Positions 39,934 through 62,350 of a stretch of DNA of 64,000 nucleotides are shown in pieces (positions within the stretch are counted from its first letter, which is position 1; each line of letters starts with the position of its first letter). The translations under genes were made by a program, and so were the position numbers. Source of the DNA: Streptomyces sp. 2114.4 (lineage in GTDB: Bacteria > Actinomycetota > Actinomycetes > Streptomycetales > Streptomycetaceae); contig NZ_FYEY01000001.1 in NCBI RefSeq assembly GCF_900187385.1, positions 6,510,001-6,574,000 of the forward strand, written 5' to 3'. Under the pieces are notes generated by a model. That model did not search any database and had not been told where the DNA came from. It was given only the letters and a program-made list of their open reading frames with translations.

Positions 39934-41004
39934 ATGGGTTCCCACGCCCGCCCCAACCGCATCCACCGCACCGGAGTCCGGGTCGCGATGGTCGCCCTTG
40001 TCGGTGCCGCCCTGCCGATCACCGCCAGTGGCCTCGCCCAGGCGGCCACCCCCGGTGCCACGCACTCCGCGGACGAGAACGGCCGGCAGGGCGGCGAGGC
40101 CACCGCGGGGGCGGCCCACAAGCAGGGAACGCAGCGGCAGTTCGGGTCCGCGCAGGCGGGCCGGCAGCACGCCGTCGAGGGCAAGGCCGCCGCCGCGCAG
40201 GCCGCGAAGGACCAGGACGCTCCGCAGATCCACGCCGACCACGCCTTCCTGCTGGACGCCCGCGACGGCAGCCAGGAGCGGGAGTTGTGGGGCGGGGCCA
40301 AGGCGGACGAGAGCGTGTCGATGGCCAGCACCACCAAGATCATGACGGCCATGGTGGTGCTCAAGCACCCGGAGTGGCTGAACCGGCAGATCACGGTGAA
40401 GCAGGAGTACCGGGACTACGTCCAGAAGGTCGGCGGCAGCACCGCCGACCTCCAGACCGGCGACACGCTGACCGTCGAGCAGCTGCTGCACGCCATGCTG
40501 ATCCCGTCCGGCGACGACGCCGCGATGGCCCTGGCCGACAACTTCGGCGCCGGTGCCACCGCGGACGCGCGGATCGACGACTTCGTGAGCCAGATGAACG
40601 TCGAGGCGCAACAACTGGGCCTGGCCGGCACGCACTTCGACGGCTTCGACGGCATCTCGCACGGCAGCAACTACAGCACCGCCCGCGACCTGGCCAAGCT
40701 CGGCCAGCGCGCCATGCTGCAGCCGGTGTTCGCCGACATCGTGAAGAACAAGCAGTTCAAGGCCGAGGCTCCGGCCGCCAACGGCCACACCCGGTACTAC
40801 ACCTGGGACAACACCAACAAGCTGCTGGGCAGCTACGACGGCGCCCTGGGCATCAAGACGGGCAGCGGCCCGGAGGCCGGCTACGCCCTCGTCTTCGCCG
40901 CCAAGCGGGACAACCGCACCCTGGTCGGCGCGATCCTCAAGGACGACCAGGGGAGCCGCTTCGATGACGCCGCCAAGATGCTCGACTGGGGCTTCGCCCA
41001 CTGA
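39934..41004 (+). CDS. D-alanyl-D-alanine carboxypeptidase (peptidase S11, penicillin-binding)
   Basis: Predicted 356-aa exported serine peptidase trimming the terminal D-Ala of peptidoglycan peptides. A signal peptide (VAMVALVGAALPITASGLAQA) and an Ala/Gln-rich linker of about 60 residues precede the catalytic domain. The active-site Ser-x-x-Lys is STTK in VSMASTTKIMTAMVVLKHP. The second motif reads SGD (LIPSGDDAAMALAD), where S11 enzymes usually have SGN, and the third is KTG (GIKTGSGPEAGY). ATG 39934 is chosen; ATG 39919 overlaps the ribosome site GGAAGG. No C-terminal membrane anchor is present. Confidence 0.9.
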   Translation: MGSHARPNRIHRTGVRVAMVALVGAALPITASGLAQAATPGATHSADENGRQGGEATAGAAHKQGTQRQFGSAQAGRQHAVEGKAAAAQAAKDQDAPQIHADHAFLLDARDGSQERELWGGAKADESVSMASTTKIMTAMVVLKHPEWLNRQITVKQEYRDYVQKVGGSTADLQTGDTLTVEQLLHAMLIPSGDDAAMALADNFGAGATADARIDDFVSQMNVEAQQLGLAGTHFDGFDGISHGSNYSTARDLAKLGQRAMLQPVFADIVKNKQFKAEAPAANGHTRYYTWDNTNKLLGSYDGALGIKTGSGPEAGYALVFAAKRDNRTLVGAILKDDQGSRFDDAAKMLDWGFAH

Positions 41005-41168
41005 ACGGGCAGCGCCCCCGGCGTTGAGCGCGTACCGCATGCGGCACCGTCGGCCCCGCCCTCGCCCCTGCCCCCGCCTCCTGACCGGTCCCGCGGCACG
41101 TTTAGTGATCGTTTATTGCGGCTCGGCAGGATGTGAAGTGTCGGGAAGGATCCTTCACAGGGGACGGT

Positions 41169-41477
41169 ATGGCCAAGCTCTATCTGGAGAAGCTCCAGTG
41201 CGTCACGACTGAGGGCTGGAGCGGCGTCGACGAGCCGAGGCTTGTTGTCCAGCATCGTGGCACCGTGTGGAACAGGACGGTGCTGGGAGACCGGATGTAC
41301 ACCGTCAAGTACGACTGCGACTTCACGGGAACGATTGCCGTCTCCCTCGGGGAGGCCGGCGGAGCGGTCGGGGACGGCAGGCCCGGGGAGCAGTGGATCA
41401 CGGATACGCCCGGTGAGCGCAGTCTGCGCTTCAGGGCGGATGGTGCTGAGTACAACCTGCTGTATGCGGTCGAGTAG
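41169..41477 (+). CDS. Hypothetical cytoplasmic protein (102 aa)
   Basis: Predicted 102-aa protein with no signal peptide (MAKLYLEKLQCVTTEGWSGV at the start) and a beta-rich pattern (RTVLGDRMYTVKYDCDFTGT, SLRFRADGAEYNLLYAVE). This suggests a small beta-sandwich, perhaps C2- or lectin-like, but I do not recognise the family. ATG 41169 follows AGGGGACGG. A large perfect hairpin follows. It is convergent with the small secreted gene at 41640-41888. Confidence 0.65.
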   Translation: MAKLYLEKLQCVTTEGWSGVDEPRLVVQHRGTVWNRTVLGDRMYTVKYDCDFTGTIAVSLGEAGGAVGDGRPGEQWITDTPGERSLRFRADGAEYNLLYAVE

Positions 41478-41551
41478 TCGAGTAAGGTCCGCCGGCCGCG
41501 GGGACTGCCGTTGGGGGAACGGATCCTGCGGTCGGCGGGTGGTGGAAGCGG

Positions 41552-41594
41552 AAAGTCCGCTGCCCCGGTGTGACACACCGGGGCAGCGGACTTT
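41552..41594. terminator. 20-bp perfect bidirectional terminator hairpin
   Basis: Positions 41552-41571 and 41575-41594 are exact inverse complements with a 3-nt loop (GAC). The stem begins AAAGTCCGC and ends GCGGACTTT followed by TT, so each strand has a short U-run. It lies between convergent genes. Confidence 0.85.
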
Positions 41595-41639
41595 TTGGCG
41601 CAGCGTCGGGGGGACGCCTCCTCGCCGGATCGAGAACGG

Positions 41640-41888
41640 TCAGCGGCTGTAGATGGGCATGATGGTCTCGCTGTCGTCGCACCACACCTCGTGGTAGCCG
41701 TTCGCCTGGGCCTGCGGGAGTTCCGCCGCTTCGCACGCCGTCTTCGACGGGTACTTCATGGCACCGACGGGGACCCAGCCGTCGCCGGGCGGAGGGGCGG
41801 CGGAGGCGGTGGTGGCGGTCAGCGGAATGGCGACCGCTGCGGCACTGACAGCGAGACCGACACCGATACGGGTACGCCACGACTTCAT
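41640..41888 (-). CDS. Small secreted protein
   Basis: Predicted 82-aa exported protein: a signal peptide (IGVGLAVSAAAVAIPLTATT then ASAA) and a mature part of about 52 residues with two Cys (SKTACEAAELPQAQ, YHEVWCDDSETIMPIYSR) likely forming a disulfide. The ATG at 41888 follows AAGGAG. The YPSKTACEAAE and W-C-D pattern recalls small actinobacterial secreted proteins of unknown role. Upstream, 41977-42024 is a 12-bp repeat. Confidence 0.75.
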   Translation of the reverse strand: MKSWRTRIGVGLAVSAAAVAIPLTATTASAAPPPGDGWVPVGAMKYPSKTACEAAELPQAQANGYHEVWCDDSETIMPIYSR

Positions 41889-41976
41889 GGTCTTCTTCTC
41901 CTTGCTTGTCATCACTGCCCCGAGCCGGTCCTGCTCGGATACGGTCTTGGCCCATGTCCAGGGCGGTACCGAGATG

Positions 41977-42024
41977 GTCAGCCGGGTCGTCAGCCGAGTG
42001 GTCAGTCGAGTGGTCAGTCGATCG
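41977..42024. repeat. 12-bp tandem repeat
   Basis: Four consecutive 12-bp units, GTCAGCCGGGTC, GTCAGCCGAGTG, GTCAGTCGAGTG and GTCAGTCGATCG, lie between the small secreted gene and the lipoprotein gene. They have no credible coding role. Confidence 0.8.
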
Positions 42025-42051
42025 GGCTGACGAAGGTGGCCGGGCGGGTAT

Positions 42052-42759
42052 TTACGCGTGGGCGCTGATCACGCCGCCGGCGCTGAGCACGATGTAGATG
42101 CCGTTGGCGTTGAGCCCGGCGTCGTGCTGGTTCGTCTCCAGGGTGGCGGCTACGCCGTCGTGGCCGATGATCTGTGCGCGGTACCGCAGCTCGCCGATCT
42201 TCGTGACCTTGGCCGTCCAGCCGCCCGCGAGCTTGAAGGTGCCCGGTCCCTGGTGTCCGCCACCCATCCAGGAGTGGACCTGGCCGTCCAGCGTGAGCGT
42301 GACGAACATGTCGTTGGCGTCGAGCCCGTCGTCGTGCCCCTTCGTCTCCAGCGTGGCCAGGACCGAACCGCGGGCGACGATCTTGGCGCGGTAGTGCTGG
42401 TCGCCCAGCTTGTAGATCTCGGCCTTGCTGATGCCGTCCGCCAGGCGTTGGGTGCGGACCGGCGATGCCGCCGTGGCACCGGCCGTGTGCGCGCTGCCCG
42501 ACTGCTGCCGGCCCGACTGCTTGTCCGCGACGCCCGCCTTGACGTCGGCCTTGGCGTCGGTGCTCTGCAATCCGGACCAGCCCGAGGCGGTGGACTCGGC
42601 GGCGGTCGAGCGCATGTTCGTGTGGCCCGCGGACTTCGTGCCGCCGGCGTCCGAGCCGGAGCAGGCGGTCAGGGTGAGACCGGCGGCCGCGGTCAGGGCC
42701 GCGGCGGCGATACGCAGCGTGCGGCGACGAGCGGTGCGGACAGTGGAGCTGGAGCTCAT
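42052..42759 (-). CDS. Lipoprotein with two internal repeat domains
   Basis: Predicted 235-aa lipoprotein. The signal ends in a lipobox (LTLTACSGS, Cys about residue 33), followed by a Ser/Thr/Ala linker and two homologous units of about 45 residues. The first is HYRAKIVARGSVLATLETKG, HDDGLDANDMFVTLTLDG; the second is RYRAQIIGHDGVAATLETNQ, HDAGLNANGIYIVLSAGG. The duplicated A-T-L-E-T/G-L-x-A-N pattern suggests a small beta-domain repeated twice. Family not recognised. ATG 42759 is used; upstream in-frame codons lack a ribosome site. Confidence 0.72.
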   Translation of the reverse strand: MSSSSTVRTARRRTLRIAAAALTAAAGLTLTACSGSDAGGTKSAGHTNMRSTAAESTASGWSGLQSTDAKADVKAGVADKQSGRQQSGSAHTAGATAASPVRTQRLADGISKAEIYKLGDQHYRAKIVARGSVLATLETKGHDDGLDANDMFVTLTLDGQVHSWMGGGHQGPGTFKLAGGWTAKVTKIGELRYRAQIIGHDGVAATLETNQHDAGLNANGIYIVLSAGGVISAHA

Positions 42760-43782
42760 TTCGTATTCCCCGGGGCGGTCGGTGTCGTTGTTTTCTCGGT
42801 ACGTCACCCACTCTGCTCGGTGCCACTAGCGCACGGCTGCCGCTCCGCTAACACCCGGCTAACACGCTGCTGAGCAAGGGATGGACGCCAAGGCGAGCCT
42901 CAAGAGCCGGGCGAGTGCTGCCGAGTTGGGAGACGGGAAGCTGCAGCTGATGGACATTCAGCGGTGCGATGCGGGCTGCGATAACCGGGAGACGGCGTAC
43001 GTCGGCTGGTCCGGATCGGCGCGCCGCGGCGGGCCCGGCCCTCCGCGCCCGCGACGGGCTCGGTCGCCGTACCGCCGGCCGAGAGGCGATCCTTCGGTCC
43101 AAACTGCCTACTTCAAGCCGACTATGACTTCCGGGCATGCAGGGCCAGTAGCCCCAGGAGTTCGCCGCGACGTCATGACGCCGTACCCGTCGCTCCGGAG
43201 CCTCGGAGGGCGGTTCTTCCTGGGGCAGTGCTGCCGCAGGAGCCACTTCCGCACCATCGGGGCCATCCGTTACCCCGTGTCGACGCTCCCGGTGGAGTAA
43301 CGGAACCATGACCATGGGTAGTGGTGCGGCTCTCGACAAGTGGCCGGTAAAGACTGTTCCTGAATCAACCTTTAGGCAATCATGGAGCACGGCCGACCAC
43401 CGGGGTGGTCATCGTGGCTCACCTGGAGGGTGGATATACGTTCAGCGATTCTTCTGCCTTCATCAGGAGGAAGGTCTGTAGGTTTCCTGTCCGATTCCGG
43501 GTCTCAGCTCTTCGCGGCGCACTGGGGTGTGCGAGGGAGCGAGCAATCCTCTCCCGTCCGTGGAATGAAGCGACCTTCCTCGGGCGCGAACATTCTCATG
43601 GTGCGAGACGGTGGATTCGTGGGGTGACCCCCGCGGTTCGCCGGCCGGGCCGCCACGATGGCTCGTGATAGTGATCAAGCGCAATCGAAGACGTCTCAAG
43701 GCATCTATCCAGTGGATCGTTGCGTCAATTTGACCACCATATTGACCGCGATCCACACCTGTGTGAACTGGAGTGAAGCAAG
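42760..43782. other. 1-kb stretch without a convincing gene, upstream of the six-gene cluster
   Basis: Short open frames occur on both strands (for example 43308-43481 and 43405-43668), but none has good codon bias with a ribosome site or recognisable protein pattern. The second half (about 43280-43780) is visibly poorer in G/C than its surroundings. It should contain the promoter of the cluster starting at 43783; no clear operator was recognised. Confidence 0.5.
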
Positions 43783-44550
43783 ATGACGACAAGCACGGCA
43801 ACGGCACTTCACGATCAAGTCACTTCGCTCATGGACGAGTTGGACCGGCACCCGGTCTACGAGAATGAGTACTTCAAGTTCCTGGAGAACTCGCCATGGA
43901 ACAGCCGTACCTATGAATTTCACCGGGCGAACTTCTTCCAGCGCACCGAGGGCACGGTCAAAGGCATTGCTCACGTGTGTGCGCAGGCGGCGGCCAATGA
44001 TGACCGGGACACCCTGGTCCTGTTCTCCTACATCCTCAACGAGGAGGCCGGGAACGGCGAGGCCGCCCATTGCCATGAGGTGTTGATGGAGAACGCCCAC
44101 AACTTGCACGGAAAGATCGAGTTCGGCCTGGCGCCGTTACTCGTGAAGGATGCGCGCCACAGTGACCTGGTCATCCCGGAGACGTTCGCGTACCGCGAGC
44201 GCACCCGGGAGCTGCTGGGGGCCAACTACCACCGGATGCTGGGCGTCGCGATGGCTCTGGAGTCCCACGCCGACAGGATGCTGCAGGTCTGCCGTACGGC
44301 GTTCCGCAACAGCAACAACAAGCAGCCCGAAGTCGAGTTCGTCAACAACGTCGAGATCTACTTCAACGTCCACGTCGGCGATGAGGGCGTCGAGGAACGC
44401 CATGCCGCCGATGCGAAGAAGTGCGTCCAGAACAACTGCCGCACCGAAGCCGACGTCGCCGAGATCGCCTACGGTGCGAACGAGACGCTGAAAATACAAC
44501 AGGAAATGTGGAACGCGATGCACAAGGCCGTCCGCGAGTTGAATTCCTAG
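43783..44550 (+). CDS. Haem-oxygenase-like diiron oxidase/oxygenase (HDO family)
   Basis: Predicted 255-aa helical metalloenzyme of the iron-containing redox group (relatives include UndA, BesC, RohS and the central domain of SznF). Likely iron ligands: Glu56 in FFQRTEGTVKG, the NEEAGNGEAAHCHEV helix (Glu93/His96/His98), Glu160 in AMALESHADRM, and the late helix FNVHVGDEGVEERHAADA (His197, Asp200, His207). Members cleave C-C bonds or oxidise nitrogen in small amino acids or amines. A TTA codon lies at 44137-44139 (Leu119). It is the first gene of a six-gene run; substrate unknown. Confidence 0.8.
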   Translation: MTTSTATALHDQVTSLMDELDRHPVYENEYFKFLENSPWNSRTYEFHRANFFQRTEGTVKGIAHVCAQAAANDDRDTLVLFSYILNEEAGNGEAAHCHEVLMENAHNLHGKIEFGLAPLLVKDARHSDLVIPETFAYRERTRELLGANYHRMLGVAMALESHADRMLQVCRTAFRNSNNKQPEVEFVNNVEIYFNVHVGDEGVEERHAADAKKCVQNNCRTEADVAEIAYGANETLKIQQEMWNAMHKAVRELNS

Positions 44551-44559
44551 CGGGGAGAG

Positions 44560-45855
44560 GTGAATCGGCCGACCGTGCAGAAAAATCGTGGAATTTCCGA
44601 TGCCGTCCTGAGCATTCCAGAATCGGTGACTCACGGGACCGCGGCGAAGATCGCCGCGCTCAACAAGTCGCTCCCCGAGGACGACCAGATCATCGACCTC
44701 AGCATCGGCGCGCTGGACACACCGACCGATCCCCGGATCGACCGAGGTGTGATCGAGTTCGTGGAGAAGCAGTCCGACGCGATTCATGCCTTTGCGCCCG
44801 TCAGAGGGTTTCCGTTCCTGTTGGAGTCCGTGGCCGCGCGCGTGGCCCGCCTCCATGGAATTGCGTACGACCCGAACCGTGAAATCATGGTCACACCGGG
44901 CGGTGTGAAGGGTTCGATTTCGGTGGTCTTCCACGCCCTGCTGAACCCGGGCGACGAAGTCGTGATCCCCGTGCCCAACTGGCCGCACTACTCGGACATG
45001 GTGCGGCTGCACGAAGCCATCCCGAAGACCGTCCTGGTCACGGCGCACGACGGGCTCACGGCGCCGGCTCTTGAGGAAGCGCTCTCGGAGCGAACCAAGA
45101 TCGTCGTGCTCGGCGACTGCATCAACCCGACGGGCAAGGTCTATTCGACCGAGGAATTGTCGGCGCTGGCCGATGTCCTCGCCCGGCACAATATGCGGTG
45201 TGAGTCCCGAGGCGAGAGCCCCGTCCATGTCCTGTTCGACTCTCCCTACGAGGCCCATATCGTGGGGGACCGCGCCAAGACGTTCGCCGCCATCGACGTT
45301 CCGCTGCCCGACGGCAGCCGCTGCTCCATGCGGCCGTGGACGCTGTCAGTGACCGGACCCGGCAAGACGTACGGAATGCACGGCGACCGGATCGGCTACC
45401 TCTGCGGTCCACCGGACATCGTGGACGCGGCGGCGCGCGCACAGGTCAACATCACCTCGTTCGCCTCCACTTACGGGCAGGTCGCCACGCACATCGCCCT
45501 GCAGCCGGAAATGGACGAGGTGGCGGCCGCCAGAGCGAAGACCGCACGCGCCAATCTCCAGACCATGCTGCGCGAGCTCGAAGCCGTCCCCTCGTTGAAG
45601 ATCAGCCCCGCCCAAGGGGGCTACTTCCTCTTCGTCGACTTTTCGAGCTACGCCGACGCCTACCAGAAGCAGGGCTACAGCAGCGCCGATCAGTTTCTGC
45701 TGAACGAGGCGAAGGTCGCCACGATCTGCGGCAGCCATTTCGCGGAGGGCCACTTCCTCAATCACCTCGTGCGGATCAACTGCGGCCGGACGGGTGCGCT
45801 CGTGAGCAAGGCCGGCATACGTATCAGGCGCGCCCTCACACGCTTGGAGTCCTGA
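44560..45855 (+). CDS. PLP-dependent aminotransferase, class I/II
   Basis: Predicted 431-aa fold-type I enzyme: IIDLSIGALDTPTDPRIDRG, PVRGFPFLLESVAARVARLH, IMVTPGGVKGSISVVFHALL, NPGDEVVIPVPNWPHYSDMV, VLGDCINPTGKVYSTEELSA with the Asn contacting PLP, and the Schiff-base Lys in TGPGKTYGMHGDRIGYLCG. A C-terminal LVRINCGRTGAL supplies the carboxylate-binding Arg. The start is GTG 44560, which abuts the purine-rich ribosome site; GTG 44575 is the alternative. It begins 10 bp after the diiron oxidase. It may transaminate the cluster's amino acid or, like RohP/MppP relatives, oxidise it. Confidence 0.85.
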   Translation: MNRPTVQKNRGISDAVLSIPESVTHGTAAKIAALNKSLPEDDQIIDLSIGALDTPTDPRIDRGVIEFVEKQSDAIHAFAPVRGFPFLLESVAARVARLHGIAYDPNREIMVTPGGVKGSISVVFHALLNPGDEVVIPVPNWPHYSDMVRLHEAIPKTVLVTAHDGLTAPALEEALSERTKIVVLGDCINPTGKVYSTEELSALADVLARHNMRCESRGESPVHVLFDSPYEAHIVGDRAKTFAAIDVPLPDGSRCSMRPWTLSVTGPGKTYGMHGDRIGYLCGPPDIVDAAARAQVNITSFASTYGQVATHIALQPEMDEVAAARAKTARANLQTMLRELEAVPSLKISPAQGGYFLFVDFSSYADAYQKQGYSSADQFLLNEAKVATICGSHFAEGHFLNHLVRINCGRTGALVSKAGIRIRRALTRLES

Positions 45856-45868
45856 CCTGAATGCCAAG

Positions 45869-47647
45869 ATGAGGGGAAGCATCACCTTCTGCATCATCGG
45901 CACGGGTTTCGCAGGAACCTGCGCGTTGTGGCACGTGGTGCAACGACTTACCGATCCACGCCGCAGGCCCTCGCTCTCCCCCTCGGCCGTCACGATCGTC
46001 ACGGTGGAGCGGGGGCCGGTGAACGGGCCGGGATATCCCTATGCGAAGGACAACGTCCAGCTTGCGCATCGGTGCAACAACGAGGCGAGCACCATGGGGA
46101 TCCACGGCAATGATTTCGTCGACTGGCTGGCCGCGAGCAAACCATGGCTCATCAGGGACTGTCCGGAGCTGGTCCGGGAGACCCACCCCGGAGTCACGCT
46201 CAGTGAATGGCAGCCCGAAAACGGCGAGTTCTATCCGCGGGCGTTGTTCGGCCTGTATCTCGAGAAGCGGTTCCAGGAGACCGTAGAGCGGGCCCGTGCA
46301 CATGGCATTGACGTTCAGCAGTACGTGCGCCACGAGGCCGTCGACGGCTACGCAACGGAGCAGGGATTCGCCCTGTCCCTCCGTAGCCTCGATACCGACC
46401 ACGAGTTCACGGTGGACGGGATCGACCGCGTCCTGCTGAGCACCGGACACTGGCAGTCCAAGGCGACCGACTCGCTTTCCGGAGAGAGTGGATACGTCAT
46501 GGCGCCCTATCCACCGGACGCGGTGAAAGCAGCCGTCGACGAACGCATCCGGTTACGGCGCGCACGTGGCGAGCGGCCCCGTGTGTTCGTTCAGGGGATG
46601 GGCCCGAGCGGTATCGACGCCATCATGACGCTGTGCGGTGACGGCGAGTTCACGTACACCGACGACGGTCATATCGCGTCGTACCAGCCGGCGGCGCAGG
46701 CCGGCGAGGAGCCCTTGCACATCGTCGCCGGGTCGCGCTGCGGGTTCTTCCCTCCCGTGCGGGGGCCGCTCGTTCCGTACGAGCCGCACCATCTCACGGA
46801 GGAGCGCCTGGCGGAGATCCGGCGCGATCACCAAGGGCAGCTGACGATCGAGCGCATTCTGGAGCTCTTGGACAAGGACCTGCGCCGGGCAACCGAGGGG
46901 GCAGTGGGGTGGAACGACATCACCAACCCCGGCTATCACTCCGCCAAGGAAAAGCTCGCGAGTGATCTTCGGGACTCGTACACCGGAAACCTCGTCCACA
47001 CCATTGTGCTGAAAGCGCGGCGGATGCGCTTCTACAACCAGCTCGAACCGTCTGACAAGGCGACGTACGACCGGCTGCTCGACACCCACTTCATTCGGAC
47101 GGCCGTGCCGATGCCGTCCGCGAACGCGGAGAAGCTTCTTGCTTTGATGGACGCCGGGATGCTGACGACCGTCAGGCAGGGCTATGACGCGCCGCGTCCA
47201 GCAGTGGGGGAGGACGGTGATTTCCGGATCACCTACCGGTCCGACGAGGGCGGACAGTCGACCCTGCGGGCGGACTGCGTGATCCGTGCCAGCGGGCAGG
47301 ACTTCAACATGGAGAACCATCCGTCACCGTTGGTGCAGAACCTTCTGAGGCGAGGCGAGATCGTCCCGCATGAGGAAGGGGGATATGTCACGGGCGGTAT
47401 CGCGCTCGACGCCCGCGGCGGGTACCGGGTGATGAAGCGGGCGGGCGGCGGGTGTGTTCCGTCGCCGCATCTCACCTCCTACGGTTCGCCCGTCAGGTTC
47501 TGGCAGCACGAACACAATTTCGCCGGCGCATTCGTCGAGGCGGCCGAGTGGGTTGCCGAGGCGTGGCTCGATGTCGCGGCGGCCGTCACCGCACGCTCCG
47601 TCGCCGTCGACGGTCCCGGGTTGGTCACCAGCGAGACAGGGAGTTGA
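45869..47647 (+). CDS. FAD/NAD(P)-binding protein (NAD_binding_9-like)
   Basis: Predicted 592-aa flavoprotein. The dinucleotide motif ITFCIIGTGFAGTCALWHVV starts the chain; VERGPVNGPGYPYAKDNVQL with the following NNEASTMGIHGNDFVDWLA is characteristic of the FAD-NAD(P)-binding (PF13454) group, and PRVFVQGMGPSGIDAIMTL is a second dinucleotide-binding turn. VIRASGQDFNMENHPSPLV comes near the end. Such enzymes are N- or C-hydroxylases or amine oxidases in natural-product pathways. A TTA codon lies at 46553-46555 (Leu229). It follows the aminotransferase by 13 bp. Confidence 0.8.
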   Translation: MRGSITFCIIGTGFAGTCALWHVVQRLTDPRRRPSLSPSAVTIVTVERGPVNGPGYPYAKDNVQLAHRCNNEASTMGIHGNDFVDWLAASKPWLIRDCPELVRETHPGVTLSEWQPENGEFYPRALFGLYLEKRFQETVERARAHGIDVQQYVRHEAVDGYATEQGFALSLRSLDTDHEFTVDGIDRVLLSTGHWQSKATDSLSGESGYVMAPYPPDAVKAAVDERIRLRRARGERPRVFVQGMGPSGIDAIMTLCGDGEFTYTDDGHIASYQPAAQAGEEPLHIVAGSRCGFFPPVRGPLVPYEPHHLTEERLAEIRRDHQGQLTIERILELLDKDLRRATEGAVGWNDITNPGYHSAKEKLASDLRDSYTGNLVHTIVLKARRMRFYNQLEPSDKATYDRLLDTHFIRTAVPMPSANAEKLLALMDAGMLTTVRQGYDAPRPAVGEDGDFRITYRSDEGGQSTLRADCVIRASGQDFNMENHPSPLVQNLLRRGEIVPHEEGGYVTGGIALDARGGYRVMKRAGGGCVPSPHLTSYGSPVRFWQHEHNFAGAFVEAAEWVAEAWLDVAAAVTARSVAVDGPGLVTSETGS

Positions 47648-47650
47648 ACG

Positions 47651-48178
47651 ATGGAGATGAAAGAGTTCCATTACCAGGACGGCCTGCGGGTCAGCCTGTT
47701 CAATCTCGACCACAAGGCTGTCCCCTATCACTTCCATAATGAAGTGTCCGACATGATGTATTGCTCACGGGGTCAGATCACGATCGAGCTGCCCGATACG
47801 GACGAGGTGTTCACCGTCCACCCGGATCAGGTGTTCCAGGTTCCCCACCCGAGCAAGCACAGGTTCGTCAACGGAGCACCTGTCGGAACGCCCTCACGCT
47901 ATGTCCTCCTGCAGATCGGCGATTTCGACATCAACTTCGTTCCCGCCGCCAAGGATATTGCGGGGCAATTCGCCGAGCGCGCCGCGACGCAGGTCACCGG
48001 CGACGCCGTTTACATCGAGGATCGCAAGACCGACATCATCAAGCTCGCCGACCACTTCGAACAGGAGAAGCCCGAGGTCCTGGACGCGGAGGAGCAGGCT
48101 GACGTCGTGGCTGCCCTGCGGTGCTTCGCCTCCCGTGGAGTGGAGACGGCGCACCCGCGCAGTGGCCGCAACTCTTGA
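47651..48178 (+). CDS. Cupin-domain protein
   Basis: Predicted 175-aa protein with a single cupin barrel at about residues 20-100: VPYHFHNEVSDMMYCSRGQI gives the first metal motif (two His and a Glu), TIELPDTDEVFTVHPDQVFQ and VPHPSKHRFVNG the second with another His. A C-terminal helical tail (ITKLADHF-like, then EEQADVVAALRCFASRGVE) follows. It could be a dioxygenase, isomerase or rearrangement catalyst. ATG 47651 lies 3 bp after the flavoprotein stop, so co-translation is likely. Confidence 0.8.
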   Translation: MEMKEFHYQDGLRVSLFNLDHKAVPYHFHNEVSDMMYCSRGQITIELPDTDEVFTVHPDQVFQVPHPSKHRFVNGAPVGTPSRYVLLQIGDFDINFVPAAKDIAGQFAERAATQVTGDAVYIEDRKTDIIKLADHFEQEKPEVLDAEEQADVVAALRCFASRGVETAHPRSGRNS

Positions 48179-48945
48179 CCGACACGGCACCGCTCTCCTT
48201 CGACGTGGCCACCGTCACGCTGATAGTTCTGACGTTCTTCGCGGGTGGGTTGATCAAGGGTTTGACCGGCCTCGGCCTGCCGCCCGTCGTCCTGGGAATT
48301 CTCGCGGCGACGGTCGGGATCCACCCCGCGAAGGCGTTGATTCTCATTCCGACGTTCCTGACGAATGTCCTTCAGGCGTCGCGCGGTGGTCACGGCCGGG
48401 AAGTCGTGCGGCTCACCTGGCCGTTTCTTCTGGCCGCCACGGTCTTCACCGTCTCGGGTGCGTTCACGCTGAGCTACTTCCGGGCAGACGTGATGTCCGC
48501 ACTGCTCGGCCTGGGGCTCACGGTGTACGGGTTGCTCGGGCTGTTCAAGCTCCGGGTGAACATCAGGGACAGATGGTGGCACCACCCCGCGGGTGTGGCC
48601 TTCGGAGCCACCAACGGCTTCCTTACCGGAATGACCGGCTCGTCAGCCGTCCCGGGAGTTTTCTACCTGCAGTCCATCGGTCTGCTGCGGGACCAACTGG
48701 TGCAGAGCATGGGGATCCTCTTCACGCTCTCCACCGTTGGTCTGGCATGGTCGCTGCGGACACAGGACCTGCTCAGTATGGATCTCGGCGTCATGTCGGC
48801 CGCCGCCTTGGCGCCGGCCTTTCTCGGGATGTCGGTCGGCAATCGGATTCGCCGGAGGATCTCCGAGGAAAAGTTCCGCACAGTACTGTGTGTCGCCCTG
48901 TTGATCCTCGGCCTGTACGTCGCGATACAGAGTCTGGCCGGCTGA
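48175..48945 (+). CDS. TSUP family membrane transporter (TauE/SafE-like)
   Basis: Predicted 256-aa membrane protein with about eight helices. TSUP features: TLIVLTFFAGGLIKGLTGLG then LPPVVLGILAATVGIHPAKA in the first repeat, and FGATNGFLTGMTGSSAVPGV in the second. The best start is a TTG at 48175 overlapping the cupin stop (TTGA); a GTG at 48121 is in frame but would add 18 non-conserved residues. TSUP proteins export sulfite, sulfonates or organic acids; here it probably exports the cluster's product or a by-product. Confidence 0.8.
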   Translation: MTDTAPLSFDVATVTLIVLTFFAGGLIKGLTGLGLPPVVLGILAATVGIHPAKALILIPTFLTNVLQASRGGHGREVVRLTWPFLLAATVFTVSGAFTLSYFRADVMSALLGLGLTVYGLLGLFKLRVNIRDRWWHHPAGVAFGATNGFLTGMTGSSAVPGVFYLQSIGLLRDQLVQSMGILFTLSTVGLAWSLRTQDLLSMDLGVMSAAALAPAFLGMSVGNRIRRRISEEKFRTVLCVALLILGLYVAIQSLAG

Positions 48946-48977
48946 TGAGGCTTCATGAAGCAAGGAGAGGATTCGCC

Positions 48978-49565
48978 ATGGAACACGGTCTCGCCGAACT
49001 GCTGGGTGAGTTGGAGGAATTCGGCAGTACCAACGATGCGGCGACGGACGACCGAAGCCGGAAGATGCTGAACATCACGCACGACACCGGCGTGTTCCTC
49101 GCCTTACTTGTCAAGGCATCCAAGGCCAAGAAGGTGCTGGAGATCGGGACGTCGAACGGCTACTCGACGCTGTGGCTCGCCGACGCCGTGGGCGAGGGCG
49201 GCTCGGTCACCACCATCGAAAAGGCGCCTGACAAGCGCGCGATGGCAGAGCGGAACTTTCAGCGTGCCGGGCTCGGCCCCCGCATTCAGCAGATCGGCGA
49301 CGAGGCCGGCCGCTTCCTCGCAACGCGCGAAGCGGGCGAGTACGACTTCATTTTCCTGGACAGCGATCGCGGACAGTACGCCGGCTGGTGGCCCTTGCTA
49401 CAGCGGATCCTCGCTCCCGGCCACCTCCTCGTGGTCGACAACGCGACCTCCCATGCCCACCAGATGGAAGACTTCACCCGGCTGGTCACGGCCTCGGACG
49501 GCTACCTCAGCTCGCTTTCCCCGATCGGCAAGGGCGAGTTGGTCATCCTGAAGGAGGACGTGTAA
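48978..49565 (+). CDS. SAM-dependent O-methyltransferase (COG4122/caffeoyl-CoA OMT-like)
   Basis: Predicted 195-aa methyltransferase. Motif I is VLEIGTSNGYSTLWLADAVG; TIEKAPDKRAMAERNFQRAG, YDFIFLDSDRGQYAGWWPLL with the metal/catalytic Asp, and HLLVVDNATSHAHQM follow, as in divalent-metal-dependent catechol-type O-methyltransferases. ATG 48978 follows AAGGAGAGG; an upstream in-frame ATG lacks such a site. A TTA codon lies at 49104-49106 (Leu43). Last gene of the cluster, 32 bp after the exporter. Confidence 0.86.
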   Translation: MEHGLAELLGELEEFGSTNDAATDDRSRKMLNITHDTGVFLALLVKASKAKKVLEIGTSNGYSTLWLADAVGEGGSVTTIEKAPDKRAMAERNFQRAGLGPRIQQIGDEAGRFLATREAGEYDFIFLDSDRGQYAGWWPLLQRILAPGHLLVVDNATSHAHQMEDFTRLVTASDGYLSSLSPIGKGELVILKEDV

Positions 49566-49781
49566 CGGGCACGCGCGCACTTCGAGTGCCTGGCTGGGCC
49601 GCCGTCGCCGACGACGTCCTCGGCTCCTGACCACCACAACGTCCTGGACAGGGGGGCATGACGGACCGGACCGCCAGGTCTGGCCTGAACGGACGGTCAT
49701 CAGCACGGCGAGGGCTGTACCCGTGGGAGCTTGTACAGCCCTCCCCCTGTGTGCGGGCGTGTCAGCCGGGGGTGTCCGGCC

Positions 49782-50156
49782 TCAGCGGCGTTCGCAGGCA
49801 AGTGTCAGGCACAGCATCAGCACCTCGTAGGGGGTGCTGTCGCTCTCTGCGGCGGGTGTCTCCTCGGAGTCCGCCAGGAACCGCCACTGCGAGGGCTGGG
49901 CGTGCTGGGTCTCTGCCTTCTTCTCCACCTTGACGTGGAGTGTGCGGGCCTGCGGGTCGTTCGTCTCGACGGGCACTTCGTCGCTGCCGATGGAGAAGTG
50001 GTCGTGTAACAGCACCAGGCCGAACCGGTCCAGATTGCCGTGCTTCTCCAGCACGGCTTTGATGTCCCTGGCGAACTCCGCGTCCTGTGGGCCGAGCGGT
50101 TCTGCGTCTTCGAAGCGGGGAAGGTGGCGCGGTGCGCTGCTGGTCTGCGTAGGCAT
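49782..50156 (-). CDS. Hypothetical protein (124 aa)
   Basis: Predicted 124-aa soluble protein (FEDAEPLGPQDAEFARDIKA, VLEKHGNLDRFGLVLLHDHF, SIGSDEVPVETNDPQARTLH, YEVLMLCLTLACERR). Charged, with alternating helix and strand patterns and no signal peptide. Codon bias and length support a real gene, but I do not recognise the family. The ATG at 50156 follows GGAGAT. It borders the decayed region at 50188-51577. Confidence 0.65.
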   Translation of the reverse strand: MPTQTSSAPRHLPRFEDAEPLGPQDAEFARDIKAVLEKHGNLDRFGLVLLHDHFSIGSDEVPVETNDPQARTLHVKVEKKAETQHAQPSQWRFLADSEETPAAESDSTPYEVLMLCLTLACERR

Positions 50157-50187
50157 GACGATCTCCTCTCGACCGCGCTCTGCGGTC

Positions 50188-50349
50188 TCAAGTCACCATA
50201 AGCAAAGGGTGAGTTGTGGCAGAAGTGCCTGACGGTAAAAGAACGTCGCCGAGCTCGGTGCACCCGTCGAGAACGTCGTTCGCGCGCTGGACCGCGTCCC
50301 GGTAGCGGGCGACGACATCGGTCACGCTGTCCGCCGGTGCGGCTTCCTG
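50188..50349 (-). pseudogene. DinB/DUF664-like C-terminal fragment
   Basis: A minus-strand frame without start encodes PADSVTDVVARYRDAVQRAN then DVLDGCTELGDVLLP, reminiscent of the helix after the metal site in DinB-type proteins. It ends at 50188. Upstream it meets a stop before any start. Weak but consistent with neighbouring fragments. Confidence 0.35.
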
Positions 50350-50410
50350 TCAGCTTGCCTCGGCAACGCCAGGCTGAGGCGACCTCGGCGTCCCGTCGCC
50401 CCCGGGGGGG

Positions 50411-50698
50411 CGCGGCGGCGATGATGGTGTCGAGCATCGCGCGCGACGCCTGTAGATCCTCGATGGCGCGGGTGATCCGCTCGCCCTCCCGGCGCAGCTG
50501 GGCGAGCAGGTCCGGGCAGGTGGGCACGAGGTGCTGGTCGTCCGCCCGGATGCACGGCAGAACCTGAGCGATCAGAGCGGTCGGAAGGCCTGCCGCCAGC
50601 AGACAGCGAATGCGGCGCACCGTCTCGACGTCCGACTCGCCGTAGACACGGTAGCCGCTGGGCAGCCGCTCGGGCGTCAGCAGTCCTTGCTGCTCCAT
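50411..50698 (-). pseudogene. MerR family regulator lacking the first part of its HTH
   Basis: The frame begins MEQQGLLTPERLPSGYRVYG, which is the MerR wing region normally preceded by an R-Y-Y motif and about 20 residues of helix-turn-helix. ESDVETVRRIRCLLAAGLPT, ALIAQVLPCIRADDQHLVP and a coiled coil (LLAQLRREGERITRAIEDLQ) follow. With the recognition helix missing, DNA binding should be lost. The break (about 50700) adjoins the break of a divergent hydrolase fragment. Confidence 0.65.
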
Positions 50699-50704
50699 CG
50701 AACC

Positions 50705-50929
50705 ACTGGACCTGGACGACCTCGGGTGTCCGCCCCCACCCTGGTGGTGGCGCCGACCGGCGACCGACTTGTGCTGCCCGAGAGCTCGTACCGCCTGGCG
50801 GCCGGCATCCCGGGTGCCCAGCTGATCGAACTGCCCGGCGCCGCCCACGTCCTGAGCACGGCAGACCGAGCGACCTGGCTGCGCCACGTCCGCGAGTTCC
50901 TCGCCGCTCTGCCCACCACGTCAGCGTGA
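50705..50929 (+). pseudogene. Alpha/beta hydrolase C-terminal fragment
   Basis: The frame encodes VSAPTLVVAPTGDRLVLPES, LAAGIPGAQLIELPGAAHVL and a closing helix WLRHVREFLAAL. This is the Asp- and His-bearing end of an alpha/beta hydrolase; the nucleophile half is absent. The stop overlaps the start of the MFS remnant (GTGA), showing that the two were once an operon. Confidence 0.65.
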
Positions 50930-51459
50930 GCGCACCGCTGCTCACGGATCAGGCCGGTCCGCTCACGAAGTCGCCGGCCCGGCAACGGGCCGGCCTGCTC
51001 GTTCTCGCCACTACGACCTTCGTCGTCGTCACCACAGAGCTGCTGCCGGTCGGGCTGCTGACGCCGATCAGCGACGATCTGGGAGTCGCGCGATCACGGG
51101 TGGGGCTGCTGGTCACCGTGTACGCCTTCACCGTCTACACCTACGTGCCCCCGCTCCTGCACGACGCCGCTGCCTTCAGCGAGGCCGCCACCAGCATGCT
51201 CCTTGCCTTGTACGGGCTGGCGGGCTTCCTGGGGACCTGGCTCGGCGGTGTCCTGGGGGACCGTCGCCCGCACACCGTCCTGCTCGGCACCATCGCCCTG
51301 ATGGCCGGCTCACTGGTTCTGCTCGGTGCGAGCGTCCGGCTGCAGCCACTCGCCGTGGTGGCCGTGGCCCTGTGGGGCGTTGCCTTCGCCGCACTGCCGG
51401 TAACGCTGCAATCGAGCGTTCTCCGCCTGGGAGCCACCGCACCCGACGCGGCGTCCTCC
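50926..51459 (+). pseudogene. MFS drug-efflux transporter remnant with internal deletion
   Basis: GTG 50926 starts a normal MFS (DHA1-type) N-terminus: RAGLLVLATTTFVVVTTELL, PVGLLTPISDDLGVARSRVG and LLVTVYAFTV. It then jumps to a later region, YTYVPPLLHDAAAFSEAATS, LYGLAGFLGTWLGGVLGDRR, LWGVAFAALPVTLQSSVLRL. It breaks off at 51459 before the last helices. The reading frame is kept, but about half of the 12 helices are missing. A recombinase fragment abuts the end. Confidence 0.7.
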
Positions 51460-51577
51460 TGGTGCGCCGGAAAGGCGGCAGGGGCGGACGCGACGGACGC
51501 CGACACCGTCAACCGCGAACTGTCCCTCGCACGCAAGGCGATCGGCTGGTGGCAGCGCCAGGGCTGGATCGTCGTGA
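51460..51577 (+). mobile_element. Tyrosine recombinase (integrase) fragment
   Basis: In frame with the MFS remnant the sequence continues ATDADTVNRELSLARKAIGW and WQRQGWIVV. This matches the core-binding helix of actinobacterial tyrosine integrases (typically T-V-N-R-x-L-x-x-x-R-x-A-I-G-W-W). Only about 35 codons survive. It marks a former recombination or integrated element at the edge of the decayed region. Confidence 0.5.
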
Positions 51578-51603
51578 TCCGACGGTCAGGCAGGAGGTCG
51601 GGG

Positions 51604-52587
51604 TTACCTCCGGGCCGCGGTGTCGGAGGGGAGTTCGGCGAAGCGGTCGCGATAGGCGCTCGCGAAGCGGCCGAGGTGCGAGACGCCCCACCGGTAGGCG
51701 ATCGTGCCGATGGGGTCGGTGGAGGCGAGGATGTCCGCACGGATCCGGTCGAGCCGGAGGTTGCGGACGTAGGACAGGGGCGGAAGGCCGAGCCGGTTGC
51801 GGAACGCCGAGCTGATGGTGCGAGGGCTGCAGTGGGCGGCCCGAGCGATGTCACCGAGGCTGATGTGTTCGGTGAGGTTCGCCTCGATGAACGCGAGGGC
51901 TGCGCGCACCGCACGCGGGTGGCCGGGGGGAGGGCCGTCGCGCAGCTCGGCCGTGTGCGAGTGCGGCTGGGTCAGGAGCAGGGCGGTGACGAGGGCCCGC
52001 AGCTGGCTGCGCTGCACGTCCGTGCGCTGGAAGAGGGGGTCTCCCGAGTCCAGCTGTTCGAGCAGGGCACGGACCAGCAGCCGCACCGCCCGGCCCTTGG
52101 ACGTGGCCAGGTCCAGGGCGAAGTCGAAGCGTATGGGGGACAGCGGCGGGTGCCCGGTCAGCGCACTGAACTCCTGGTCGACCAGGGCGGCGTCGAGGCG
52201 CAGCCCCAGGAACCGCGTCCCGCGGGCAGGCACGGGCCGCAGTTCCTGGGAGTCCCCGGGGTTGACGACTCCCGCCGTCGACCTGTCCAAGGTCGCCCGC
52301 AGGCTGCCGCGCGCTGCCGAGATCGCGCCGGAGACGCCGATGTTGACGAAGTAGGACCTGCGGCCCTCGGCCGAGGCGACGCGCACGTCGAGCGGCGAGA
52401 CGAAGTAGCCCACTGCGAAGCCGTGGGCGGCCACGCCGCGCAGTTCGTGATCGCCGCTGCCCAGGCCGTCCAGCGGCGATGTGGCGATGGAGCCGCCGAA
52501 GATCAGGGTGGCGGCGTTCAGCAGGTCGACGGGGTTCCGGGATTTGCTGATGAGGTAGGTGCGCAGCGGCTCCGGCACGGCGTTCAC
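51604..52587 (-). CDS. AraC family regulator
   Basis: Predicted 327-aa regulator. An N-terminal AraC_binding_2-like domain (VSPLDVRVASAEGRRSYFVN, AGVVNPGDSQELRPVPARGT) precedes a C-terminal double helix-turn-helix at about residues 220-320 (ALAFIEANLTEHISLGDIAR, AAHCSPRTISSAFRNRLGLP, PLSYVRNLRLDRIRADIL, AYRWGVSHLGRFASAYRDRF). The start is GTG 52587 behind AAAGGAGG, or GTG 52578. It is the last gene of a minus-strand group with an extradiol dioxygenase and FAD hydroxylase, and probably activates them. Confidence 0.88.
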   Translation of the reverse strand: MNAVPEPLRTYLISKSRNPVDLLNAATLIFGGSIATSPLDGLGSGDHELRGVAAHGFAVGYFVSPLDVRVASAEGRRSYFVNIGVSGAISAARGSLRATLDRSTAGVVNPGDSQELRPVPARGTRFLGLRLDAALVDQEFSALTGHPPLSPIRFDFALDLATSKGRAVRLLVRALLEQLDSGDPLFQRTDVQRSQLRALVTALLLTQPHSHTAELRDGPPPGHPRAVRAALAFIEANLTEHISLGDIARAAHCSPRTISSAFRNRLGLPPLSYVRNLRLDRIRADILASTDPIGTIAYRWGVSHLGRFASAYRDRFAELPSDTAARR

Positions 52588-52728
52588 CTCCTCCTTTGGT
52601 GCGCCCGCCGCGGCGCTGGGGGCGTATGCGGCGGGGCCCGCGTACGGCGTCAGTGTCTCAAGTCTCAGCCGTGGTGGCCTGCCCGGTGCGGTGCCGGTGC
52701 CGGTGCCCGGTGCCCGGTGCGGGCGGGC

Positions 52729-53673
52729 TCACATCGGCGGGGCGACGAACAGCCCCGGGTCCACGTCGTTGTGGGACTTGGCGGCGATGAACTCGTCCAT
52801 TTCGTTGGCCGTACCCCACTCATCCGCATTGGCGGGGTCGCGCAGGTCGTAGAGGTGGGGGTGCCAGGTGTCCTCGTCCAGGATCTCCAGCTCGGTGGTG
52901 TACTCGACGGTGTTGCCGGCCCGGTCGAGGAAGTAGCTGAAGGAGTTGTCGCCGGCACGGTGCCTGCCCGGCCCCCACAGCCGCTCGACGCCCCTGCGCC
53001 GCATCCGGCCGGTGCCGCGCATGAACTCGTCGACTCCGCGCATCTCGAAGGAGGCGTGGTGGAAGGCCGCGTGCGGCCCGCGCACGATACCGAAGCTGTG
53101 GTGGAAGGGGTTGCACCGCAGGAACCACATGATCTCGCCGCGGTCGCCCCGGCACATGGTGTCCGAGAGACGGAACCCCAGGTGCCTGATGTACCAGGCA
53201 ACCGTGGCCTCGGGGGTGGGAGAGTTCATCAGGACGTGGGAGAGGCGTACGGGGATCGGCTCGCGGGCCTCGATCCTGCGGTGCCGGCGCGCGGCGACGT
53301 CGGCGGAGACCTCCACCACGCGGCCCTCGTTGTCGAAGAAACGCACCGCGTAGCCGCCCCCGGGTGTGTCCAGCCGCTTCGGTTCGTGGACCAGCCGCAC
53401 GCCCTGCGCGATCAGCTGAGCCGCCAGGGTGTCGACATCGCCCGCGCCGGCGGCGCCGAAGGCGATCAGGTCGGTGCGCTTGTGGGCGTCCTCGCGCAGT
53501 CGCACCACGTACTGCTCAGGGGAGCCTTCGGCCGCCAGGAACGAGACACCGGTGTCACCGGCGGTCTCCGTCAGCCCCCACAGCTCGGTGTAGAACTGAC
53601 GCTGCTCGGCGAAGTTCGGCATGGCGACATCGATGTGCCGCAGATGGGTGATCAGGCTGCTGCTGTTGCTCAT
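52729..53673 (-). CDS. Type I extradiol (catechol 2,3-) dioxygenase, two VOC domains
   Basis: Predicted 314-aa ring-cleaving dioxygenase. The N-terminal VOC unit (THLRHIDVAMPNFAEQRQFY) is structural; the C-terminal unit holds the iron facial triad, with His in PVRLSHVLMNSP, His in AAFHHASFEM, and Glu in GNTVEYTTELE, together with the Y-F-L-D-R-A-G-N signature. Length is typical. It lies between an FAD hydroxylase and an AraC activator, consistent with meta-cleavage of a hydroxylated aromatic compound. Substrate not identified. Confidence 0.85.
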   Translation of the reverse strand: MSNSSSLITHLRHIDVAMPNFAEQRQFYTELWGLTETAGDTGVSFLAAEGSPEQYVVRLREDAHKRTDLIAFGAAGAGDVDTLAAQLIAQGVRLVHEPKRLDTPGGGYAVRFFDNEGRVVEVSADVAARRHRRIEAREPIPVRLSHVLMNSPTPEATVAWYIRHLGFRLSDTMCRGDRGEIMWFLRCNPFHHSFGIVRGPHAAFHHASFEMRGVDEFMRGTGRMRRRGVERLWGPGRHRAGDNSFSYFLDRAGNTVEYTTELEILDEDTWHPHLYDLRDPANADEWGTANEMDEFIAAKSHNDVDPGLFVAPPM

Positions 53674-53780
53674 GGTGAACTCCCTTGAGTCGCACTGGTC
53701 AGGTCAAGGTGCTGCCGCCGAAGATGCGGGTCCTGGCCACAACTCCCTCGTCTCGTCGTCCACTTGGCGTCGTCTGGACG

Positions 53781-53852
53781 CTTCGCGTCGTCTGGTCGCT
53801 TCGCGCCGGCTGTTCACTTCGCGCCGGCTGTTCACTTCGCGCCGGACGGTCA
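53781..53852. repeat. 18-bp tandem repeat
   Basis: Units CTTCGCGCCGGCTGTTCA at 53799-53816 and 53817-53834 are exact; 53781-53798 and 53835-53852 are diverged copies. The array lies between the FAD hydroxylase stop and the dioxygenase start on the minus strand, ending within three bases of the hydroxylase's stop codon. Confidence 0.8.
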
Positions 53853-54977
53853 CGCGGGCTCGGCCATGAGCCGGTGACCGGCCTCCGTCAGCGGATACGT
53901 TTCGCGATGGCGCTGCGCACGTTCCAGGCCGGCGATCGTCACCGAGGTCTCCACGAGCGTTCGGCACCGCTGCCCGCGCCGTCTCACGAACGCCTCGAGC
54001 CCCGCCCCGACCGGCCTGTGCCGCCCGAGCTCTTCGGCCAGCACCAGCCCGTCCTCGATGGCCAGAGCCGCGCCGCTCGCCATCTGCGGTGCGGGAGCGT
54101 GCGCGGCGTCACCGATGACGACGCCGCTGCCCCGGTTCCAGGCGCCCGCCAGGAACGCGGTCAGCACCGGGCGGCGCACCACCGACTCCGACGCGGACAC
54201 CAGAGGGAGGACTTCCGCCACCCTGCCCGGGAAGGTTTCCAGCATCTGCTGCAGGCGCGGGACGAGTTCGGCCTCGGGCAGGACGCTCCGCTCCACTCCG
54301 TTCTCCGTCAGGAACACGTACGCCTGGCTGACCGAGAGGGGCACCAGGCCGGCCGTGCCGGCCTTCCCGGCGAACTGGTGGATCCCGGTGGCCCACTGCG
54401 GGCGGGGCACCAGAGCCCGCCAGACCATCTGCCCGTGATAGTCGAGCGAGGCCGCAAGGCCCAGCAGGCTCCGCGTCGATGAGCGGATCCCGTCCGCGCC
54501 CACCAACAGCGCGACCTGCCGGACCGACCCGTCCGACAACTGCACGTGGACCAGTTCTCCCTCCTGGTCCACCGCCGTGACGGTCAGCCCGTGTCGTACG
54601 ACGACGCCGCGCCGCTCGGCTTCCGCGTGCAGGATGCGGTGCAGCACGGGGCGCGCTATGCCGGCCATCGCCGGCCGCCGCGCACCGATCAAGCTCGGCA
54701 GCCGGGCCCGGCCCGCGGGTTCGCCGTCCACGTCCACGTGCGTGATCACGCTCATGCCGTAGCCCGCGGCCAGACAGTCGTCCGCGAGACCCAGCCCGGC
54801 CAGCGCGCGCAGGGCAGGACCGGTCAGGCACAACCCCCATCCGGAAGTCGCCCTGGACGGGCTGGCCTCGGCGATCTCCACCTGCCATCCCGCGCCTGCC
54901 AGGGCGGCGGCCGCTGTCAGACCGGCGACGCCCGCTCCCACGATCATGGCGGTGCGCGCACCGCGACAGCTGTTCAT
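53850..54977 (-). CDS. FAD-dependent aromatic monooxygenase
   Basis: Predicted 375-aa single-component flavoprotein hydroxylase: AMIVGAGVAGLTAAAALAGA for FAD, VALLVGADGIRSSTRSLLGL (the D-G motif), and GVVIGDAAHAPAPQMASGAA with ALAIEDGLVLAEEL (the G-D motif). It is of the UbiH/PHBH type. First gene of the minus-strand group 54977-51604, it would introduce the hydroxyl needed before ring cleavage by the downstream dioxygenase. ATG 54977 is used. Confidence 0.86.
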   Translation of the reverse strand: MNSCRGARTAMIVGAGVAGLTAAAALAGAGWQVEIAEASPSRATSGWGLCLTGPALRALAGLGLADDCLAAGYGMSVITHVDVDGEPAGRARLPSLIGARRPAMAGIARPVLHRILHAEAERRGVVVRHGLTVTAVDQEGELVHVQLSDGSVRQVALLVGADGIRSSTRSLLGLAASLDYHGQMVWRALVPRPQWATGIHQFAGKAGTAGLVPLSVSQAYVFLTENGVERSVLPEAELVPRLQQMLETFPGRVAEVLPLVSASESVVRRPVLTAFLAGAWNRGSGVVIGDAAHAPAPQMASGAALAIEDGLVLAEELGRHRPVGAGLEAFVRRRGQRCRTLVETSVTIAGLERAQRHRETYPLTEAGHRLMAEPA

Positions 54978-62173: not shown

Positions 62174-62350
62174 ATGACGGTGAATGTCGTCGACAGTTCG
62201 GGTGCCACCGCCTGGTCGGCGGGGTCAAGGGCCGCACCGGGCGAGAGCGGGGCTCGGCGGAGCTGCTCGACCGGGCGTGCTCCCGGTCCTTTCCGCGGCC
62301 GCCGGCCCGGAACAGTGGCAGAGAGCCGGCAGGGGCCGGAGGGACGATGA
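62174..62350 (+). CDS. Possible short ORF or gene remnant before the YbdK-type ligase
   Basis: ATG 62174 has a strong AAGGAGG site and opens 58 codons (TVNVVDSSGATAWSAGSRAA onward) that overlap the next start by ATGA. The first residues look normal, the rest is Arg/Gly/Ser-rich and shadow-like, so it may be a truncated gene or a leader peptide coupled to the ligase gene. The rest of the 443-bp gap (61904-62346) shows nothing else. Confidence 0.35.
   Translation: MTVNVVDSSGATAWSAGSRAAPGESGARRSCSTGRAPGPFRGRRPGTVAESRQGPEGR

Follow-up and report, generated by a model that had tools for sequence, protein, structure and literature searches.

Six tightly packed genes of Streptomyces sp. 2114.4, here called A to F, recur together without any polyketide synthase (PKS) or nonribosomal peptide synthetase (NRPS), and we tentatively propose, with a little less than even confidence, that they form one operon for a small-molecule pathway leading to an N-oxidised, O-methylated and exported amino-acid derivative. 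They occupy positions 43783-49565 of the window, the 64,000-nucleotide stretch that was analysed (G000:C1:6510001-6574000, where G000 is the window's own genome and other G labels are other sampled genomes). The proposal builds on the content, order and co-inheritance of the genes, on the selection acting on them, on the metal-ligand residues of the oxidase A, and on the remote relationship of the flavoprotein C to an N-hydroxylase.

A compact six-gene operon

All six open reading frames were present on the forward strand, together with an operator-like palindrome upstream:

43707..43717, no strand assigned: palindrome ATCCAGTGGAT, operator-like, upstream of A and recurring in other upstream regions
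43783..44550, + strand: A, haem-oxygenase-like oxidase (HDO), 255 amino acids; PF14518 (Haem_oxygenas_2) 30.7 bits, ligand pattern and wider-family alignment; proposed metal ligands E88, H98, E160, H197, E204 and H207
44560..45855, + strand: B, pyridoxal phosphate (PLP) transaminase of fold type I, 431 amino acids; PF00155 (Aminotran_1_2) 161.1 bits; core partner of A
45869..47647, + strand: C, FAD/NAD(P) flavoprotein, 592 amino acids; PF13454 (NAD_binding_9) 68.8 bits; remote relative of the solved structure 8cp2
47651..48178, + strand: D, cupin, 175 amino acids, with H27-x-H29, D34 and H70; metal motif in 9/9 orthologues, Cupin_2 score below cut-off
48175..48945, + strand: E, TSUP (TauE/SafE) permease, about 256 amino acids; PF01925 (TauE) 85.4 bits and alignment; TTG start overlapping the stop of D
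48978..49565, + strand: F, class I O-methyltransferase (Methyltransf_3), 195 amino acids; PF01596 (Methyltransf_3) 90.9 bits; solved relative 8c9v

Stop-to-start gaps were 9 bases for A-B, 13 for B-C, 3 for C-D, -4 for D-E and 32 for E-F, the last measured to the F ATG at 48978 (35 bases if measured to codon 2 of F). Judged from the sequence, E probably starts at TTG 48175 and F at ATG 48978, which is preceded by AAGGAG. An initial annotation of the window had described six packed same-strand genes here, lacking a PKS, an NRPS or a regulator, and our results agree: Pfam and NCBIfam scans of the six proteins revealed none of these three. Its family calls also held, with Pfam recovering the HDO, the PLP aminotransferase, the FAD/NAD(P) protein, the TSUP permease and the O-methyltransferase, and the cupin being recognised by its conserved motif. 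For A the call rests on a PF14518 score above the cut-off and on six retained ligand residues. In NCBIfam no model matched A or E.

Co-inheritance of the six genes

A is rare: we found it in 9 of 392 sampled Streptomyces genomes, one copy (G191) being broken, split into two frames with transposase genes alongside. Six of the 394 genomes in a family sample carried A (four of them already in the Streptomyces sample), as did two of 394 in a class sample: G685, which bears a remote relative, and the genome of the window itself. Scanning named genomes yielded four loci, of which one is that of G260. Intact A was present in 13 genomes, nine of six-gene type and four of three-gene type. The nine with a complete C-F set are G000, G389, G294, G297, G148, G260 (NRRL S-455), SolWspMP-5a-2, G943 and G786, the last belonging to a different genus of the same family; the other four are S. 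inhibens, AJS327, G019 and G149.

All six genes were co-linear in eight loci besides the window, and gene order and spacing were constant across the seven loci measured. Compared with the window, every gene in six measured loci showed protein identities of 64.7-97.3% and ratios of nonsynonymous to synonymous substitution (dN/dS) of 0.07-0.35. Because the genes are co-linear in eight other loci and dN/dS is low in the six measured, their association is more than chance, and every gene is under purifying selection. Flavoprotein C occurred in 6 of the 392 Streptomyces genomes, all within the nine that have A.

B lay directly after A in 13/13 loci and C-F were present in 9/13; in the remaining 4/13, a YczE-family membrane protein follows A-B in place of C-F (NCBIfam NF052291, all four above the cut-off of 205, at 235.1, 231.2, 234.0 and 239.7 bits). 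The TSUP protein E and YczE are alternative transporters. S. inhibens retains a remnant of C (residues 3-93), with an IS240-type DDE gene between. Since B always adjoins A while C-F alternate with YczE, A-B is an invariant core and C-F an exchangeable tailoring and export module. A 13-row tree of A and B, with 5 of 10 branches well supported, required at least two changes between the two arrangements, and a single origin of the three-gene type was weakly rejected (approximately unbiased test, p-AU 0.045), which weakly suggests at least two switches. The view that these genes make up a single conserved biosynthetic operon, free of PKS and NRPS, is supported. When co-occurrence of the six families was checked across genomes, as the initial annotation had proposed, A-B held in every locus and C-F only in nine, YczE standing in for them elsewhere.

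C is remotely related to an L-aspartate N-hydroxylase

A profile built from nine C orthologues and a 28% identical relative in G260 matched 8cp2/8cp5 (E 2.9e-7), the next matches being chance, so that 8cp2 is the sole credible solved-structure relative of C. Without the outlier row, the nine orthologues scored 1e-7 against the matched 8cp2 fragments, whereas neither the outlier row by itself nor the reversed target gave a match; as these fragments were chosen from the original match, the test shows only that the outlier does not drive it. 8cp2/8cp5 is the L-aspartate N-hydroxylase of Streptomyces sp. V2, of the CreE/FzmM type and related to the oxime-forming PcxL (PMC10404684). On profile evidence, then, C is a remote relative of this enzyme. 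Like that family (CreE, FzmM, PcxL), it has a similar length (592 amino acids against 601 for 8cp2) and carries GxGxxG motifs at residues 11-16 and 243-248. The aspartate-site residues R13, N413, R416 and R577 fall outside the aligned stretches. Unlike the nitrosuccinate/nitrite pathway, the operon has no nitrosuccinate-to-nitrite pair, as Pfam and NCBIfam scans found no nitrosuccinate lyase among A-F.

About 10 kb from the operon in G260 (L040:879-6787) lies a further cluster encoding an ATP-grasp protein, a flavoprotein 28-29% identical to C, a 2-oxoglutarate (2OG)-Fe dioxygenase, a GntC/VioD-like PLP enzyme (below cut-off), AzlC and a small AzlD-like gene recognised by eye.

A is a distinct HDO with a lengthened ligand helix

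The PF14518 score of A, 30.7 bits, is barely above the cut-off of 28.9, and together with the ligand pattern it places A, by sequence, in the HDO superfamily. Alignment with the wider PF14518 family gave the spacing E88-x9-H98, E160, H197-x6-E204-x2-H207. All six residues were kept in 13/13 A orthologues, and E88, H98, E160, H197 and H207 were also invariant over the 15 mixed rows of the wider-family alignment. The ligand set E-H-X-H-(D/E)-H occurs in about 85% of the HDO groups analysed in PMC11363339, and SznF uses E215, H225, E281, H311, D315 and H318, its third helix being H311-D315-H318 (PMC11705231). In A the third ligand helix reads H-x6-E-x2-H in 13/13 orthologues and H-x3-(D/E)-x2-H in 0/13, the alignments placing a three-residue insertion at residues 200-202 in all 13. 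Because position 201, otherwise the fifth ligand, varies among E, Q and A, E204 is the likelier fifth ligand. We considered a mononuclear, FlcD-like HDO on account of this variation and set it aside, E204 and H207 being invariant at D/E-x2-H spacing.

A profile of 11 A orthologues, searched at E up to 10, matched no solved HDO. A pooled 15-row profile matched HrmI, SznF, BesC, RohS, FlcD and a 4-aminobenzoate synthase below 1e-4; five of its rows are A orthologues or the G685 relative, and the other rows drive these matches. A is therefore a distinct HDO branch and may bind two metals. HDOs of known function number about a dozen and act mostly on amino and fatty acids, N-oxygenases included (PMC13108848).

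Other members of this family were seen. The remote A relative in G685 (E 1.2e-8, another family; L079:6784-9232) has EamA and nitroreductase genes alongside and no transaminase called adjacent. A second PF14518 protein (184.6 bits) lies just past the window end, with a GCS2-family ligase and a 2OG-Fe dioxygenase (PF10014) nearby (window 62347-64000, L080:2521-4518). Another in the same genome (L002, G000:C1:4030603-4031115) looks HrmI-like by eye and possibly belongs to another N-oxidation pathway.

The transaminase, cupin and methyltransferase

Among solved structures, B grouped best with aspartate and prephenate transaminases; a PLP hydroxylase of the RohP/MppP type was rejected for B, since the 54 solved chains named for it (E up to 1e-5) include none. 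D scored 21.2 bits for Cupin_2, below the Pfam cut-off of 27.2, and kept the motif H-x-H-x4-D-x35-H in 9/9 orthologues; at E up to 0.1 its profile found RemF and one further cupin, no solved cupin being close. The nearest solved relative of F was 8c9v, named an O-methyltransferase of family 3 (E 2e-76), and D127, D153 and N154 (alignment numbering) were invariant in 7/7 sequences. O-methyltransferases of the Methyltransf_3 type use a divalent metal and chelating oxygens.

A proposed pathway and its alternatives

We infer a pathway, including its step order, substrate and product, as follows. A would oxidise an amino acid with O2, and B would interconvert amino and keto forms of the substrate or product. 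C may act as an NADPH-dependent flavin N-oxygenase that oxidises the amine nitrogen as far as an oxime or nitro group, after which D, as a metal cupin, might rearrange, tautomerise or trim the intermediate. F would then methylate a metal-chelating oxygen pair of the aci-nitro/nitronate, oxime or hydroxamate type, and E would export the product; in the three-gene version, YczE would instead handle the untailored product. By analogy, a precedent for the N-oxidation and O-methylation steps comes from the enteromycin class, in which a diiron oxygenase is paired with a nitronate O-methyltransferase (PMC9967187, citing He and Ryan 2021). Nitroreductase-type genes occur nearby, with PF00881 directly after F in G260 and an Rv2466c-like gene in G148; a set of orthologues in the 71-80% class adjoins the operon of G297. 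A more specific version, in which a PKS/NRPS-free route yields a free amino or keto acid bearing an O-methyl nitronate or oxime through a lengthened-helix HDO and a third, non-aspartate branch of the aspartate N-hydroxylase family, is on balance unlikely.

Several observations weigh against the proposed pathway. A phmmer search with C alone, at E up to 1, found no solved chain, and the profile match of C to 8cp2 spans two stretches that individually reach i-Evalues of only 0.02-0.04, making the relationship remote. Within the aligned part, the aspartate-site arginine R266 is kept as R298 of C and R276 is lost, facing P303, so that L-aspartate cannot safely be assumed to be the substrate of C; the choice of substrate is inferred. 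PF13454 proteins need not be N-oxygenases, and a catechol is another conceivable substrate of F. The AlphaFold models built for A (5 rows) and C (3 rows) were too poor to help, with mean predicted local distance difference test (pLDDT) scores of 37.9 and 41.5. The earlier expectation of an N-oxidised product is thus partly supported, because C is remotely related to an L-aspartate N-hydroxylase, but the chemistry of A-B need not be N-oxidation, because A-B stands without C-F in 4/13 genomes.

That persistence of A-B also favours a less likely though serious alternative, in which A acts like BesC, UndA, PolF or MboA by desaturation, C-C cleavage or ring closure on a side chain, B adds or removes the amino group, and the product tailored by C-F carries no N-oxidation. 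Of the outcomes known for HDOs acting on amino and fatty acids, these are the more frequent (PMC13108848, PMC13185094). However, this would leave the N-hydroxylase-like C without a role, and the A profile reaches none of those enzymes.

The initial annotation had instead likened the locus to a split SznF, with A N-hydroxylating and cupin D forming an N-N or N-nitroso bond. SznF does join an HDO and a cupin (PMC11705231), the three histidines of D are spaced 2 and 41 residues apart against 2 and 39 for H407, H409 and H448 of the SznF cupin, and in the ham cluster the HDO and the cupin are encoded by different genes, alongside an N-oxygenase and a transaminase (PMC11659414). Homology does not support the idea: neither the D profile (E up to 0.1) nor the A profile (E up to 10) reaches SznF. 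The HxH...H pattern is common to cupins generally, hamB is reported to be non-essential for valdiazen (PMC11659414), F resembles catechol-type O-methyltransferases and not an N-methylating partner, and D is encoded apart from A and missing from 4/13 loci. We consider a split SznF improbable.

Upstream region and genomic neighbourhood

The palindrome ATCCANTGGAT stood at -71 to -78 before A in 6/13 upstream regions, with one full match in the window (43707-43717), and is a possible operator of an unlinked regulator. Genome-wide searches matched a single site in G297 and another in G786, while G000, G389 and G294 had none; the first letter of the search pattern ruled out the copy in the window itself. 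Iron-box regulation was rejected, the best sites in the 13 upstream regions having 7-10 mismatches of 19 to a consensus box, and no Rfam riboswitch was matched in window 40000-54000. A small minus-strand open reading frame at window 49782-50156 has no Pfam match and a 90% identical stretch at the matching place in G389.

A C-nucleoside-like gene set is joined to the operon, in differing arrangements, in two genomes, G297 and G148 (G148 L037:10170-19017 and L023:1-9173; G297 L021 and L036). In the G148 set, Pfam recognises Indigoidine_A, UPRTase and PRAI, along with a methyltransferase and an NRPS that carries AMP-binding, carrier and thioesterase domains; a phosphoribosyl pyrophosphate synthase was named by eye. 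In G297, about 2.5 kb separate A from an 88% identical IndA orthologue. Both genomes share an Rv2466c-like protein, EamA and an MFS transporter, placed differently, and G148 also has S-adenosylmethionine synthetase, PfkB and MTHFR genes.

An ACR3 arsenite exporter, above its NCBIfam cut-off, lies no more than about 3.5 kb from the operon in 3/13 genomes: G148 (L023:15432-17398 and L038:3-1934), AJS327 (L016:14384-15613) and G943 (L093:2612-4678). This would fit a role in metalloid or stress detoxification in place of natural-product synthesis, and a simple binomial puts such proximity by chance at 1.3e-4 for 2/9 and 1.9e-6 for 3/13, values computed for a pattern picked after it was seen. At E up to 1e-60, ACR3 was present in exactly one copy in 9 of 11 genomes checked and absent from two. 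ACR3 was not beside the other 10/13 loci within the stretches read, whose flank lengths differ, no arsenic enzyme is encoded among A-F, and islands near chromosome ends could explain the proximity; we regard detoxification as very improbable. An ArsR-type regulator was also seen in G148, and genes resembling low-molecular-weight phosphatases/arsenate reductases, below NCBIfam cut-offs, in G148 and G943. Equally doubtful is the idea that A-B and C-F are separate functions sharing an operon, which would fit A-B without C-F in 4/13 genomes and is opposed by the constant order and spacing in seven loci and by C never occurring without A in the genus sample (6/6).

Comparison with known systems

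The pairing of A with B resembles the azomycin enzymes RohS/RohP and also BesC/BesB, in which an HDO works with a PLP enzyme. Unlike in those systems, B groups with aspartate and prephenate transaminases, and the other genes differ. The streptozotocin enzyme SznF likewise brings HDO and cupin activities into one pathway, but here these are separate proteins with no profile match for either part and with an altered third ligand helix. The ham cluster of fragin and valdiazen (PMC11659414) also encodes its HDO-type protein, cupin, N-oxygenase and transaminase in separate genes, and differs in having an NRPS-like protein and an N-oxygenase that is AurF-like, not flavin-type; the available part of that paper names no O-methyltransferase. 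The enteromycin/akazaoxime class matches the operon in outline, with N-oxidation followed by O-methylation, but uses an NRPS/PKS and an oxygenase acting on carrier-bound glycine, and F is likened to its methyltransferase by description, not by sequence.

No cluster with this gene set was found in the open-licence literature, in searches mostly not aimed at the exact set and hence weak evidence of novelty. HDO pathways are already known; this operon is a variant by virtue of its gene set, its altered ligand helix and the branch to which C belongs. The locus would represent a short pathway of soluble enzymes that pairs an altered-helix HDO with a relative of flavin N-oxygenases, and the natural version consisting of A, B and YczE offers a simplified comparison in which the HDO step is separable from tailoring.

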